A stretch of 62,224 nt of DNA from Alphaproteobacteria bacterium (GTDB lineage Bacteria; Pseudomonadota; Alphaproteobacteria; Rs-D84; CASDRH01): NCBI GenBank assembly GCA_025210155.1, contig JAOASE010000008.1, forward strand, positions 1 to 62,224, read 5' to 3'. The notes under the pieces were generated by a model, which was not told the DNA's origin, searched no databases, and was given only the letters and a program-made list of their open reading frames with translations. The position numbers were made by a program, and so were the translations under genes. Below are positions 1 through 42,035 of this stretch, piece by piece (position 1 is the stretch's first letter; every line of letters starts with the position of its first letter).

Positions 1-762
1 AAGAAAGCTGCTGTTGCTAAACCTGTAGCTAAGAAAGCTCCAGTTAAGACTGTTAAGAAAACTACTACTGTGGCTAAAAAAGCAGTTGTTAAGAAGGCTA
101 CTGTTAAAGTTGCTGCTCCTAAAAAAGCAGCTAAGAAAGTTGCCACTAAAACTGTGAAAAAAGCTACTGTGAAAACAGTTGCTAAAAAGACTGTTAAGAG
201 AACTGTTTCAGTTAAAACTACTCCTGTTAGCAAAGAAAGTTTCAACGATAGACTTTTAAGAAAATGGTTAGTTGGAAATTCTAATGAAGTTCTTTCTGAA
301 AATAAATTTAACTATTTCAAAAAAATGATTACTAAATTTGAGCAAAGAGATGGTAAATTTGCATTTTCATGGAATATATTTGCTGCTCTTTATAACTTCT
401 TATATAGTTTCTTTAGAAAAGACTATGTTGGTGGTTTAGTTGTTGTTGCCGTATTAAAACTTATTGATATTCTTGCTACTATGTATGCAGTTGAAGCCGG
501 TGTTACTTATTATGGTGCATTTAGCTTTGTTCATCTTTTTGTTCTTGCTATGGTTGGTTCATCTCTTGTTAATTATAGATTGTTCCACAAGTTTGAAGCA
601 GATAAAAAAGTTATTTCTTCTGTTTCAGATAAAGAGCAAGCTTTAAAAGTTATGCAAGACCTTGGTGGTGTTCATAGCTTCTGGAGAATTGCTATGATTG
701 CAATAACTATTGCTTTAGTTTTATTGTCTATTGCAGTTAATACTGGATATATTGGTATTTAA
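1..762 (+). CDS. DUF2628-like inner-membrane protein with Lys/Ala-rich N-terminal tail (5' partial)
   Basis: The reading frame is open from the first base, so the true start lies outside the window; a GTG at 70 is only an internal codon. The first ~75 visible codons are a repetitive Lys/Ala/Val/Thr tail resembling histone H1-like tails (AKKA, VKKA units). The body has a FAFSWNIFAALYNFLYSFFR stretch like the FSWNWAAFFFGPFW-type signature of DUF2628 proteins, followed by three hydrophobic segments (GGLVVVAVLKLIDILATM, FVHLFVLAMVGSSLV and AMIAITIALVLLSIAV). It is probably an inner-membrane protein with a cationic cytoplasmic tail. Function is unknown. A terminator follows directly. Confidence 0.6.
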   Translation, partial: KKAAVAKPVAKKAPVKTVKKTTTVAKKAVVKKATVKVAAPKKAAKKVATKTVKKATVKTVAKKTVKRTVSVKTTPVSKESFNDRLLRKWLVGNSNEVLSENKFNYFKKMITKFEQRDGKFAFSWNIFAALYNFLYSFFRKDYVGGLVVVAVLKLIDILATMYAVEAGVTYYGAFSFVHLFVLAMVGSSLVNYRLFHKFEADKKVISSVSDKEQALKVMQDLGGVHSFWRIAMIAITIALVLLSIAVNTGYIGI

Positions 763-832: not shown

Positions 833-861
833 TTGACTTAGGAAACAATTCGCTATAGTCT
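833..861 (+). promoter_or_regulatory. Promoter of sRNA A
   Basis: TTGACT at 833-838; at 17-bp spacing the -10 is TAGTCT (856-861), with TATAGT at 854-859 as an alternative. It starts immediately after the preceding terminator. Confidence 0.5.
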
Positions 862-865
862 GACA

Positions 866-975
866 TTAACAACAATTTAAAATTTTAGGGTTGCCCTACT
901 CCTTAATAGGGCTACAAATTAAACTTTCCATAAAAAGGCCTTTCTTTCGAGACTTGTTCAAAGGGCCTTTTTTTA
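866..975 (+). ncRNA. sRNA A (first unit of the small-RNA array)
   Basis: Short transcription unit without an ORF. It lies between a TTGACT promoter (833-861) and an intrinsic terminator (AAAGGCC at 934-940 pairing with GGCCTTT at 964-970, then a T run). It contains a second hairpin, GCCCTA (893-898) with TAGGGC (907-912). Unlike its downstream neighbours it lacks AGGTTTAAATT. I do not recognise it as 6S, SRP, tmRNA or RNase P RNA. The 5' end is inferred from promoter spacing. Confidence 0.5.
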
Positions 976-995
976 TTCAGATCTAGTTACTTTTA

Positions 996-1060
996 TATAA
1001 TTGAGTTTTTTTATTAATCCACCATTTTATACAACGGTATAACTAAGGTGGATTTTTTAT
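996..1060 (+). terminator. Terminator-like hairpin, possibly a ~50-nt RNA
   Basis: AATCCACC (1016-1023) pairs with GGTGGATT (1047-1054) and is followed by a T run; an inner TTATAC/GTATAA stem lengthens the hairpin. A TATAAT lies at 996-1001 with only a weak -35, so this could be a tiny RNA or a second terminator for sRNA A. Confidence 0.4.
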
Positions 1061-1064
1061 TATA

Positions 1065-1093
1065 TTGACTCTAAAAAAAAAGGGTTATATAAT
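1065..1093 (+). promoter_or_regulatory. Promoter of sRNA B, with GANTC site in the -35
   Basis: TTGACT (1065-1070), 17 bp, TATAAT (1088-1093). The base after the -35 box makes GACTC at 1067-1071, a CcrM-type GANTC site. Confidence 0.7.
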
Positions 1094-1099
1094 GTTCTT

Positions 1100-1345
1100 T
1101 AAGTCTACATTTAAACTATTCCAAGCTGTGTTTCTTGGCGAAACAGTGTCAGCTTAGGAAGATTAGCTTACAACTTGGAATGTCACCGCCAAAGGACATT
1201 TCATTAAGGGAGTTGGGAACAAAACCTATGAATGCATTGAGAAAAATCATTCATTAGAAATTCCATGTGGATTTAAATTAGGTTTAAATTTAAGGGGGCA
1301 TATAGTTGGAGAAACGTCTAGTGATGAAGATTGTGCCCCCTTTTC
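1100..1345 (+). ncRNA. sRNA B, ~245-nt structured RNA with AGGTTTAAATT seed
   Basis: No ORF with a ribosome site. The 5' part is rich in nested stems: ATTCCAAG (1118-1125) with CTTGGAAT (1174-1181), AAGCTG (1123-1128) with CAGCTT (1150-1155) enclosing TGTTTC/GAAACA, AATGTC (1179-1184) with GACATT (1195-1200), and TGAATG (1229-1234) with CATTCA (1248-1253). AGGTTTAAATT (1280-1290) then precedes a terminator hairpin, AAGGGGGCA (1292-1300) with TGCCCCCTT (1334-1342). The 33-nt loop carries GTTGGAGAAACGTCTA and ATGAAGATT and is nearly identical to that of sRNA E. The seed is the reverse complement of the leader element of many small genes here. Family not recognised. Confidence 0.6.
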
Positions 1346-1370
1346 CTTTATTAAAAATAACAAATAAAAT

Positions 1371-1438
1371 ATTTCAGGTTTAAGTTAGTGTAAAAAACCT
1401 CTTGGTGGCTAGTCATAGTTTATCTAAGAGGTTTTTTT
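1371..1438 (+). ncRNA. sRNA C with AGGTTTAAGTT seed
   Basis: AGGTTTAAGTT at 1376-1386 is followed by an intrinsic terminator, AAACCTCTT (1395-1403) with AAGAGGTTT (1426-1434) plus a T run. Layout and length match sRNA D. A clear -35 box is missing (TAAAAT at 1365-1370 could be a -10), so it may instead arise by read-through and processing from sRNA B. Confidence 0.45.
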
Positions 1439-1439
1439 G

Positions 1440-1468
1440 TTGACTCTCATATTTTTATATAATATAAA
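1440..1468 (+). promoter_or_regulatory. Promoter of sRNA D, with GANTC site in the -35
   Basis: TTGACT (1440-1445), 17 bp, TATAAA (1463-1468). GACTC at 1442-1446 overlaps the -35 box. Confidence 0.65.
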
Positions 1469-1474
1469 TACACC

Positions 1475-1543
1475 ACTAAAGGTTTAAATTAAGATTAAAA
1501 ACCTCTCGACTACTTAGAAAAGTTTGTTTGAGAGGTTTTTTTC
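1475..1543 (+). ncRNA. sRNA D, ~68 nt, seed near the 5' end
   Basis: From the promoter spacing, transcription should start near 1475. AGGTTTAAATT (1480-1490) would then lie about 5 nt from the 5' end, as seeds often do in trans-acting sRNAs. The rest is a terminator hairpin, AAAACCTCTC (1497-1506) with GAGAGGTTTT (1530-1539), plus a T run. No ORF. Confidence 0.6.
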
Positions 1544-1572
1544 TTGACTATAGATAGAAAAGATACTATACT
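1544..1572 (+). promoter_or_regulatory. Promoter of sRNA E
   Basis: TTGACT (1544-1549), 17 bp, TATACT (1567-1572). It begins within a few bases of the sRNA D terminator. Confidence 0.65.
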
Positions 1573-1578
1573 TTCAAT

Positions 1579-1683
1579 TGTTAGTTGTATTTTTAAACAA
1601 TTAATAAATTAGGTTTAAATTTGGAGTGCCCTATATGTTGGAGAAACGTCTAACAATGAAGATTGGGGCACTCCTTCCTTTTT
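1579..1683 (+). ncRNA. sRNA E, ~100 nt, with AGGTTTAAATTT seed and conserved-loop terminator
   Basis: The 5' part can fold as AATTGTT/AACAATT (1576-1602). AGGTTTAAATTT follows at 1611-1622. The terminator is GGAGTGCCC (1623-1631) with GGGCACTCC (1666-1674). Its stem sequence differs completely from that of sRNA B, while the loop (GTTGGAGAAACGTCTA, then ATGAAGATT) is nearly identical. This is compensatory change in the stem with a conserved loop, good evidence for a functional RNA. No ORF with a credible ribosome site. Confidence 0.6.
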
Positions 1684-1792
1684 ATTTGTAACTATTTTTG
1701 ATGCATAAAAGACTTGTTTCTTGAATCGTTTTGTGCTATATTTGTTTTGTTTTAGGAAAAGGATATTTAAAGCAAAATTTAGGTTAGAACTT

Positions 1793-4581: not shown

Positions 4582-4944
4582 TTATACAGCAGCGGCTGTT
4601 GTAGCAACGGCAACCTCTTCGGATACCTGAACTTCCTCACCCCAAATACTTAAAAATAGTTTTTCAAATATAATGGCTTCTTTTTTCGAATGAACATATC
4701 CATCGATATATCCTGTTCTGAAAAAAGATTGTACTGCAAGCTTTACATCCATATCAACGTCTACCTCTCTTAATTCTTCATTAACAAAAGAAATTAGTCT
4801 ACTTAGAAAAACATTTAACATAAGTGTCATGTTTTTATTTGAACTAAGACCTTTGTAAACCATTGAGGCGATGGCCGATAAATATGTATTTTCTTCTATT
4901 GATTCGATTAATTTATAAATTAATCTTCTTTCCCGTGTTTTCAT
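4582..4944 (-). CDS. Orphan protein, IWG-motif family member 2
   Basis: A 120-aa protein starting MKTRERRLIYKLIES. An in-frame ATG at 4974 exists, but translating from it would read through the leader element (TTTAAACCTA, 4962-4953) and the start would sit next to the -10 box, so 4944 is chosen. The C-terminus has LFLSIWGEE, shared with both neighbours, and ends in an Ala/Thr/Val tail. Predicted helical and cytoplasmic; function unknown. Its own terminator follows. Confidence 0.7.
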   Translation of the reverse strand: MKTRERRLIYKLIESIEENTYLSAIASMVYKGLSSNKNMTLMLNVFLSRLISFVNEELREVDVDMDVKLAVQSFFRTGYIDGYVHSKKEAIIFEKLFLSIWGEEVQVSEEVAVATTAAAV

Positions 4945-5005
4945 AAATATTTTAGGTTTAAACTTTCTATACATAAATTATAGTCAAATCAAATATATTT
5001 GTCAA
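4945..5005 (-). promoter_or_regulatory. Promoter and TTTAAACCTA leader element
   Basis: Minus strand: TTGACA (5005-5000), 17 bp, TATAAT (4982-4977), 12 nt, AGTTTAAACCTA, then the ATG at 4944. Confidence 0.75.
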
Positions 5006-5554: not shown

Positions 5555-5613
5555 TAAGTTTAAATTTAATTTTTTATGAATATAAAGCTATAATATATTT
5601 TTTTAACTGTCAA
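5555..5613 (-). promoter_or_regulatory. Promoter and leader element (AAATTTAAACTT)
   Basis: Minus strand: TTGACA (5613-5608), 17 bp, TAGCTT (5590-5585), then AAATTTAAACTT (5567-5556) abutting the ATG at 5554. Confidence 0.7.
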
Positions 5614-8184: not shown

Positions 8185-8199
8185 AGTTTAAACCTAATT
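8185..8199 (+). promoter_or_regulatory. Leader element AGTTTAAACCTAATT
   Basis: Exact TTTAAACCTAATT, complementary over 13 nt to the seed region of sRNA B. It lies 18 nt before the ATG at 8218. A -10-like GATTAT lies just upstream; the -35 is unclear. Confidence 0.6.
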
Positions 8200-8706: not shown

Positions 8707-8764
8707 TTGACTTTTTACTTTATGTGATTATGTTTTATCTAAATTACAAATTTAAATCTAAAAA
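8707..8764 (+). promoter_or_regulatory. Promoter and leader element variant (AAATTTAAATCTA)
   Basis: TTGACT (8707-8712), 17 bp, ATGTTT (8730-8735), 12 nt, AAATTTAAATCTA (8748-8760), 4 nt, ATG at 8765. Confidence 0.65.

Positions 8765-9488: not shown

Positions 9489-9490
<2 letters not shown>
9462..9490. terminator. Bidirectional terminator between orphan gene and ccrM
   Basis: AAAGGAGGC ttttGCCTCCTT stem-loop flanked by A and T runs; serves both converging genes. Confidence 0.8.
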
Positions 9491-10736
<1,246 letters not shown>

Positions 10737-15672: not shown

Positions 15673-15791
15673 CTTCGTCTTTTGCACAATTGATTGTAAG
15701 AAGTACTTTTGATTTTTGACAATCGAGTATTATCTATACACGACACCAAAATTCTCAAGCACGTTTACCTCCACTTGCACAAAATACTTGG
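15673..15791. repeat. Dispersed inverted-repeat element, copy A
   Basis: One end reads CTTCGTCTTTTGCAC, the other GCACAAAATACTTGG. The ends are imperfect inverted repeats of each other (GTCTTTTGCGCGA and GTATTTTGTGCGAG in consensus). The same end pair bounds copies at 28902-29019 and 59711-59776, with unrelated interiors. Here it lies directly upstream of dnaK and its end supplies the GAAGG ribosome site. Confidence 0.6.
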
Positions 15792-26822: not shown

Positions 26823-26889
26823 TTGACAAAAATATCTTTATTATTAATATCTCATCTGGAAAGTAAATTTGAACCTAAAGAATTTAAAA
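26823..26889 (+). promoter_or_regulatory. Promoter and leader element AAATTTGAACCTA
   Basis: TTGACA (26823-26828), 16 bp, TAATAT (26845-26850), AAATTTGAACCTA (26866-26878), ATG at 26890. Confidence 0.65.
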
Positions 26890-34348: not shown

Positions 34349-34411
34349 TTGACAATACTGTTCCAGTATTTTAATATTTCGACATGTTTTAGAAATTTAA
34401 ACCGTCACAAT
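34349..34411 (+). promoter_or_regulatory. Promoter and leader element AAATTTAAACCGT
   Basis: TTGACA (34349-34354), 17 bp, TAATAT (34372-34377), 15 nt, AAATTTAAACCG, ATG at 34412. Confidence 0.75.
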
Positions 34412-41974: not shown

Positions 41975-42035
41975 TATCTCAGGTTTAAATTTAATACTCA
42001 ATATTAATCTTAATATAGCTAAGTCATTGAGTCAA
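41975..42035 (-). promoter_or_regulatory. Promoter and leader element, with GANTC in the -35
   Basis: Minus strand: TTGACT (42035-42030), followed by C to make GACTC (42029-42033), 17 bp, TAAGAT (42012-42007), AAATTTAAACCTGA (41992-41979), ATG at 41974. TTAAATTTAAACCT is 14-nt complementary to sRNA B. Confidence 0.8.

Follow-up and report, generated by a model that had tools for sequence, protein, structure and literature searches.

What is encoded in the gap between the DUF2628 gene and recG, and why does it carry the complement of a short element that stands in front of scattered small genes? The window is the whole stretch of DNA that was analysed (62,224 nt) and represents one contig of a 1.03 Mb draft genome of 12 contigs with an estimated completeness of 97%. 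Genome-wide analyses covered 1.017 Mb of sequence, all but ~9 kb of contig ends, and a crude set of 1006 genes, the start-codon calls of which are also crude. A sequence-only reading had proposed that the gap is free of genes and harbors four units with a tag antisense to the leader element, at 1280, 1376, 1480 and 1611. Indeed, not a single credible ORF was obtained within positions 763-1720 (~950 bp), and all four tags, here termed seeds, are located on the plus strand. They belong to units B, C, D and E (1099-1682), which are preceded by the seedless units A0 and A1 on the same strand:

70-762, DUF2628 gene (PF10947), flanking the array, with recG on the other side
833 and 854, promoter-like TTGACT and TATAGT of unit A0, 15-nt spacer (sub-optimal)
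866-976, plus strand, unit A0 without a seed, two hairpins and a T-run after the second one (z -2.4)
1000-1063, plus strand, unit A1, seedless hairpin with a T-run (z -3.2)
1065-1093, plus strand, promoter of unit B, TTGACT-17-TATAAT (11/12 matches)
1099-1274, plus strand, folded 5' domain of unit B with a 12-bp closing stem (whole-unit z -3.6)
1280-1290, plus strand, seed of unit B, AGGTTTAAATT (unpaired 0.81)
1292-1342, plus strand, terminal hairpin of unit B, sharing a conserved loop with unit E
1376-1386, plus strand, seed of unit C, AGGTTTAAGTT, the change keeping a G-U pair (unpaired 0.98)
1392-1437, plus strand, terminator hairpin of unit C (z -5.0)
1440-1468, plus strand, promoter of unit D, TTGACT-17-TATAAA, identified by eye (TTGACT 1440, TATAAA 1463)
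1480-1490, plus strand, seed of unit D, AGGTTTAAATT (unpaired 0.86)
1497-1541, plus strand, terminator hairpin of unit D (z -3.2)
1544-1572, plus strand, promoter of unit E, TTGACT-17-TATACT (10/12 matches)
1578-1607, plus strand, 5' hairpin of unit E (unit z -5.6)
1611-1621, plus strand, seed of unit E, AGGTTTAAATT (unpaired 0.85)
1623-1674, plus strand, terminal hairpin of unit E

Promoter and terminator signals, as read from the sequence, are present for most units. In the array, earlier described as promoter-to-terminator units, promoters were recognized for B, D and E and clear terminators, consisting of a hairpin followed by a T-run, for C and D, whereas A1 and C are devoid of a clear -35 box and both B and E have an imperfect T-run past the hairpin (TTTTCCTTT and TTCCTTTTT). 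Unit C may rely on read-through from B for its transcription. The predicted 5' end of unit D would lie ~5 nt away from the start of its seed, in agreement with the sequence-only reading. The seed of unit B follows a 176-nt domain with a closed, multi-branched predicted fold, for which neither an Rfam family nor a match to 6S was found, and unit E is arranged as hairpin, seed, hairpin. The N-terminus of the neighboring DUF2628 protein (window 1-250) is lysine-alanine-rich and shows a weak match to histone-like HC2.

The seed comprises 11 nt, with an extended form (ATTAGGTTTAAATT) in B and E. For an intergenic stretch of 853 nt, read on a single strand, chance predicts ~0.002 exact copies, and the probability of at least three is ~2e-9. 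In predicted folds the seeds of B-E are mostly unpaired (0.81-0.98, compared to unit means of 0.40-0.46), and in all four units a strong hairpin starts 1-6 nt past the seed. Units B and E have a common loop in their terminal hairpins, while 6 of the 11 outer stem pairs are altered on both sides, which argues that the structure of these RNAs is under selection. As this loop (GTTGGAGAAACGTCTA...ATGAAGATTG, 1303-1331 and 1634-1663) is kept while the stem is swapped by compensatory changes, it may bind something of its own; it had no match among viral contigs. Three extra seed copies were detected outside the array (L115:3455, L116:12552 and L122:16179, the last being AGGTTTAAATA), each immediately after a stop codon and immediately before a terminator hairpin, thus in 3' UTRs. 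These three elements match the layout of 3'-UTR-derived sRNAs and could feed the same pool. A literature search with the seed string returned unrelated papers only.

The element to which the seed is antisense, AATTTAAACCT, is found in 37 copies genome-wide on both strands, where a Markov model predicts 3.6, and thereby ranks with the most over-represented 11-mers of the genome; for the backward-read pattern the count is 5. Exact copies are located 0-15 nt upstream of the ATG of a called gene in 26 cases, mostly at 6-9 nt, and within the 1006-gene set none was found 16-49 nt before an ATG and none reversed. The supposed antisense relation between the array tag and the leaders of scattered small genes was thereby confirmed. 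With one mismatch permitted, 57 genes carry the element within 24 nt of their ATG. In addition, TTTAAACCT is the top enriched leader 9-mer (39 vs 1.06 expected). A chance origin of the match between seed and leader is excluded, and its function is what we infer from it. The following leaders were found in the window:

10720-10730, plus strand, target leader AATTTAAACCT, ATG 10737, 93 aa
11095-11105, plus strand, target leader AATTTAAACCT, ATG 11114, 115 aa
26464-26474, plus strand, target leader AATTTAAACCT, ATG 26481, 96 aa
31757-31767, minus strand, target leader AATTTAAACCT, ATG 31756, 121 aa
33770-33780, plus strand, target leader AATTTAAACCT, ATG 33789, 172 aa
38715-38725, minus strand, probable target leader, 48-aa ORF 7 nt downstream, outside the crude gene set
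41981-41991, minus strand, target leader AATTTAAACCT, ATG 41974, 148 aa
4954-4964, minus strand, probable one-mismatch leader AGTTTAAACCT, in-frame ATG ~10 nt downstream
5556-5566, minus strand, one-mismatch leader AATTTAAACTT, G-U-compatible, ATG 5554
8185-8195, plus strand, one-mismatch leader AGTTTAAACCT, G-U-compatible, ATG 8218
8749-8759, plus strand, one-mismatch leader AATTTAAATCT, G-U-compatible, ATG 8765
26866-26876, plus strand, one-mismatch leader AATTTGAACCT, G-U-compatible, ATG 26890
34394-34404, plus strand, one-mismatch leader AATTTAAACCG, end mismatch, ATG 34412

Because of the in-frame ATG ~10 nt past the leader at 4954-4964, the true start of the ORF listed at 4582-4974 is probably inside that ORF.

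The most over-represented 11-mers of the genome belong to a second dispersed element of ~120 nt, which runs from CAAGTATTTTGTGCGA to CGTGCAAAAGACGAAGG and is present in the window at 15679, 28908 and 59761 (all minus strand) and at ~20 other genomic sites. Some copies stand 20-27 nt upstream of an ATG, as in front of a dnaK-like gene and of a gene for 457 aa, and other copies have no following gene. The window further encodes a DNA methyltransferase (9489-10673, minus strand) with an N6_N4_Mtase and a RAMA domain, a layout known from Caulobacter CcrM.

The number of leader copies might be explained by a functionless repeat that spreads, or by a copied promoter cassette, in a genome that does contain another dispersed element (the one of ~120 nt). 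Such an origin is hardly credible, as the target leaders share almost nothing outside ~15 nt and the -35 box, the downstream proteins are unrelated except for one pair, and position and strand of the element are strictly kept.

Given its spacing like that of a Shine-Dalgarno (SD) sequence, with a peak at 6-9 nt, the element could stand in for the SD as a different ribosome-binding signal, for example by rRNA pairing, and the array complements would then be decoys or coincidence. In the 16S loci of two relatives (the organism's own 16S is absent from the assembly), exact matches to the seed extended over no more than 7-8 nt. Decoys would moreover be sense, whereas the array copies are antisense, and coincidence is opposed by the P of ~2e-9 for the three exact copies in 853 nt, so that this explanation is regarded as highly improbable.

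To the pairing of array RNAs with the leaders, a specific expectation is attached: if the element pairs with AGGUUUAAAUU, the leader should tolerate A-to-G and C-to-U changes but no others. Among one-mismatch leaders 20 of 31 carried such G-U-tolerable changes, compared to 20 of 87 one-mismatch sites elsewhere (Fisher p=5e-5), and the change in unit C, the sole altered seed of the four, is likewise G-U-compatible. This bias fits RNA-RNA pairing. The wobble core TTTAAATTT is palindromic, and a regex search on the reverse complement is thus uninformative as a control. In an unbiased scan, in which the complement of every 9-mer over 940 nt of the array was counted in leaders for both strands, strong peaks were obtained solely at the four seeds on the plus strand, and unit A0 showed no complement to leaders. 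Mean predicted duplex energies were -13 to -16 kcal/mol with the exact leaders, whereas other genes gave about -5 to -10. A duplex energy of -11 kcal/mol was reached by 59 leaders and 1 control region, and -10 kcal/mol by 71 leaders and 4 control regions; from these counts a regulon of about 60-75 genes is predicted.

The distance between element and -35 box is narrow (41-47 nt in 36-39 of the 57 leaders); the predicted 5' UTR is ~28 nt long and the element begins near +9, both based on predicted start points. A DNA operator just past the start point would explain the narrow distance, and unit D, with a reversed copy at a similar -35 distance (40 nt), would fit array promoters that bear the reversed operator as autoregulation. 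Nevertheless, an operator is very unlikely. The orientation is strict at the genes and opposite in the array, the copies in B, E and the three 3' UTRs go with a hairpin instead of a promoter, some element copies are internal to likely operons, where they have no promoter, and the mismatch spectrum suits G-U pairing.

The target genes are short (median 133 aa vs 223 aa for other genes), and an SD-like sequence is absent in 56 of the 57, compared to 264 of 650 long non-target genes. At a threshold of 1e-5, Pfam matches were obtained for about 5 of 55 scanned targets, namely two acyltransferase types, an amino-acid kinase, a NADAR protein and a hexapeptide transferase, with an acyl carrier protein just above this limit. 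A length-matched random set matched 54 Pfam families, with at least 20 proteins among the 25 families listed, and by this comparison the predicted regulon consists mainly of lineage-specific orphan genes. The targets do not form one protein family, as a single weak pair was found among them, nor a phage cassette, as they gave few PHROG matches. Their spread is uneven, with 21 on contig C10, 11 in the window, 1 on C6 (240 kb) and none on C4. Taken together, C4 and C6 hold 1 target leader in 340 kb, in contrast to the rich contig C10 and the window.

The relatives of this organism are uncultured alphaproteobacteria, often gut-derived. Synteny upstream of recG had been named as a check and turned out to be lacking: the recG loci of 29 other relatives, one of them the sole further genome found for the family, contained neither the seed nor the conserved loop. 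The leader element was not enriched in 40 relatives, again including that genome, and array and element are thus restricted to one genome among 41 of the order. The view that the units belong to no known RNA family stood up, since Rfam 15 at gathering score returned two tRNAs only in the window and nothing in the array, and the best hit of a lax search of the array reached 24.5 bits against a cut-off of 80.4. A housekeeping RNA, the finding that would have spoken against the sequence-only reading, was rejected, with no match to the array in Rfam or by ARAGORN; 6S was not found in the genome, and no tmRNA was detected by ARAGORN in the draft assembly. Hfq was found neither in this genome nor in the 40 relatives, with positive control genomes including a match to Caulobacter Hfq, and ProQ and CsrA were not found in this genome with positive controls. 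Assignment to the Hfq-dependent sRNAs is therefore not supported in these 41 genomes, and for a sponge of the CsrB/RsmZ type no CsrA to be titrated was found in the genome. In type I toxin-antitoxin systems an antisense RNA lies opposite or beside one small hydrophobic toxin. The targets here lie scattered, with enzymes and an acyl carrier protein among them, which does not agree with such a system. The array does show one mark of trans-acting base-pairing sRNAs in general, namely a seed, accessible in predicted folds, that is complementary to many initiation regions.

The array resembles several known systems in its proposed way of working. The LhrC1-5 sRNAs of Listeria monocytogenes are multicopy, and a single-stranded stretch between two stem-loops pairs over the initiation region and impedes translation (PMC4132741). 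The array shares with LhrC the several sibling copies and the unpaired stretch aimed at the mRNA initiation region, but LhrC copies are near-identical, 111-114 nt long and block the SD with CU-rich motifs (PMC4132741), whereas the array units differ in length and sequence save for the seed AGGTTTAAATT, which is no CU-rich motif, and their targets have no SD. In cyanobacterial Yfr1 an 11-nt conserved unpaired motif is positioned between two stem-loops, the second being the terminator (PMC2190773); unit E has the same architecture, likewise in a small genome. Yfr1, however, is a single gene conserved across cyanobacteria with the motif ACUCCUCACAC (PMC2190773), while the array has several copies of another motif in one genome and dozens of exact leader complements. 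The array would work like LhrC, Yfr1 and other sibling sRNAs and belongs to neither the LhrC nor the Yfr1 family, being set apart by the lack of an Rfam match and of the defining motifs. Qrr, OmrA/B, AbcR1/2 and the csRNAs are related sRNAs, some in tandem, with a common pairing region for several mRNAs (PMC4211561), in other hosts and with other sequences than the array; OmrA/B and others bind Hfq (PMC4211561), which was not found here. A report on Caulobacter crescentus describes an alphaproteobacterial sRNA that acts post-transcriptionally and independently of Hfq (PMC6237742), as supposed for the array, but Caulobacter has Hfq.

Large sRNA regulons are usually experimental discoveries, and their seeds match the targets imperfectly. 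The array is unusual in how many addresses it has and how exact they are, in targets that lack an SD, in a background apparently free of Hfq and in being confined to one lineage.

The pattern of tag and complement points to one RNA-based switch governing ~60 mostly unknown small genes. We consider it probable that the array gives rise to trans-acting, Hfq-independent sibling sRNAs, which base-pair at the initiation regions of the mRNAs in a large regulon and most likely block their translation. The array would encode at least four such sRNAs, each presenting an unpaired 11-nt seed just 5' of its terminal hairpin. The seed would pair with AATTTAAACCT(AAT) near the mRNA 5' end, 0-15 nt before the start codon at the usual place of the SD, and the landing site of the 30S subunit would lie under the duplex, so that translation would most likely be prevented and decay perhaps hastened. 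Transcription of the array would then silence ~60-75 mostly short mRNAs together. Several copies with separate promoters may provide a higher dosage against dozens of targets, and the seed-terminator elements in the 3' UTRs of other genes could join the sRNA pool. Transcription, pairing in the cell, repressive sign and trigger are all what we infer from the sequence.

Pairing inside the 30S footprint normally blocks initiation. Repression is favored as the sign because of the duplex position, 0-15 nt before the ATG, and the LhrC precedent (PMC4132741). The same pairing with the sign reversed, a sub-case of this model, would activate or stabilize: a duplex ~9 nt from the 5' end could shield SD-less mRNAs from 5'-end-dependent decay, or make them usable only together with the sRNAs. 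The predicted 5' UTRs of ~28 nt with the element near +9 and the missing SD of the targets would suit activation, which in view of the duplex position within the 30S footprint appears rather unlikely. Several observations count against pairing of either sign: no RNA chaperone is known in this genome for a seed duplex with three G-C pairs, B and E have no ideal T-run and unit C no clear promoter, a DNA operator could explain the narrow -35 distance, predicted folds leave the 3'-UTR seeds unpaired only in part (0.36-0.67), and with array and element in one genome among 41 there is no cross-species covariation.

A broader reading is put forward tentatively, and it may well not hold. Here, chaperone-free antisense addressing would operate on a genome scale, with ~6-7% of the called genes, mostly orphans, having their SD region turned into a common RNA address, and the sRNA cluster and some 3' UTRs would act as one control that replaces a shared transcription factor. 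What this organism presents is a 1 Mb genome in which dozens of genes bear an exact 11-nt address, the complement of which is located in a tandem RNA cluster. If the pairing model is true, nature would here offer a clear case of RNA control over many targets without Hfq, an illustration of how a seed and its regulon arise inside one lineage, and a handle on dozens of orphan genes under joint control.
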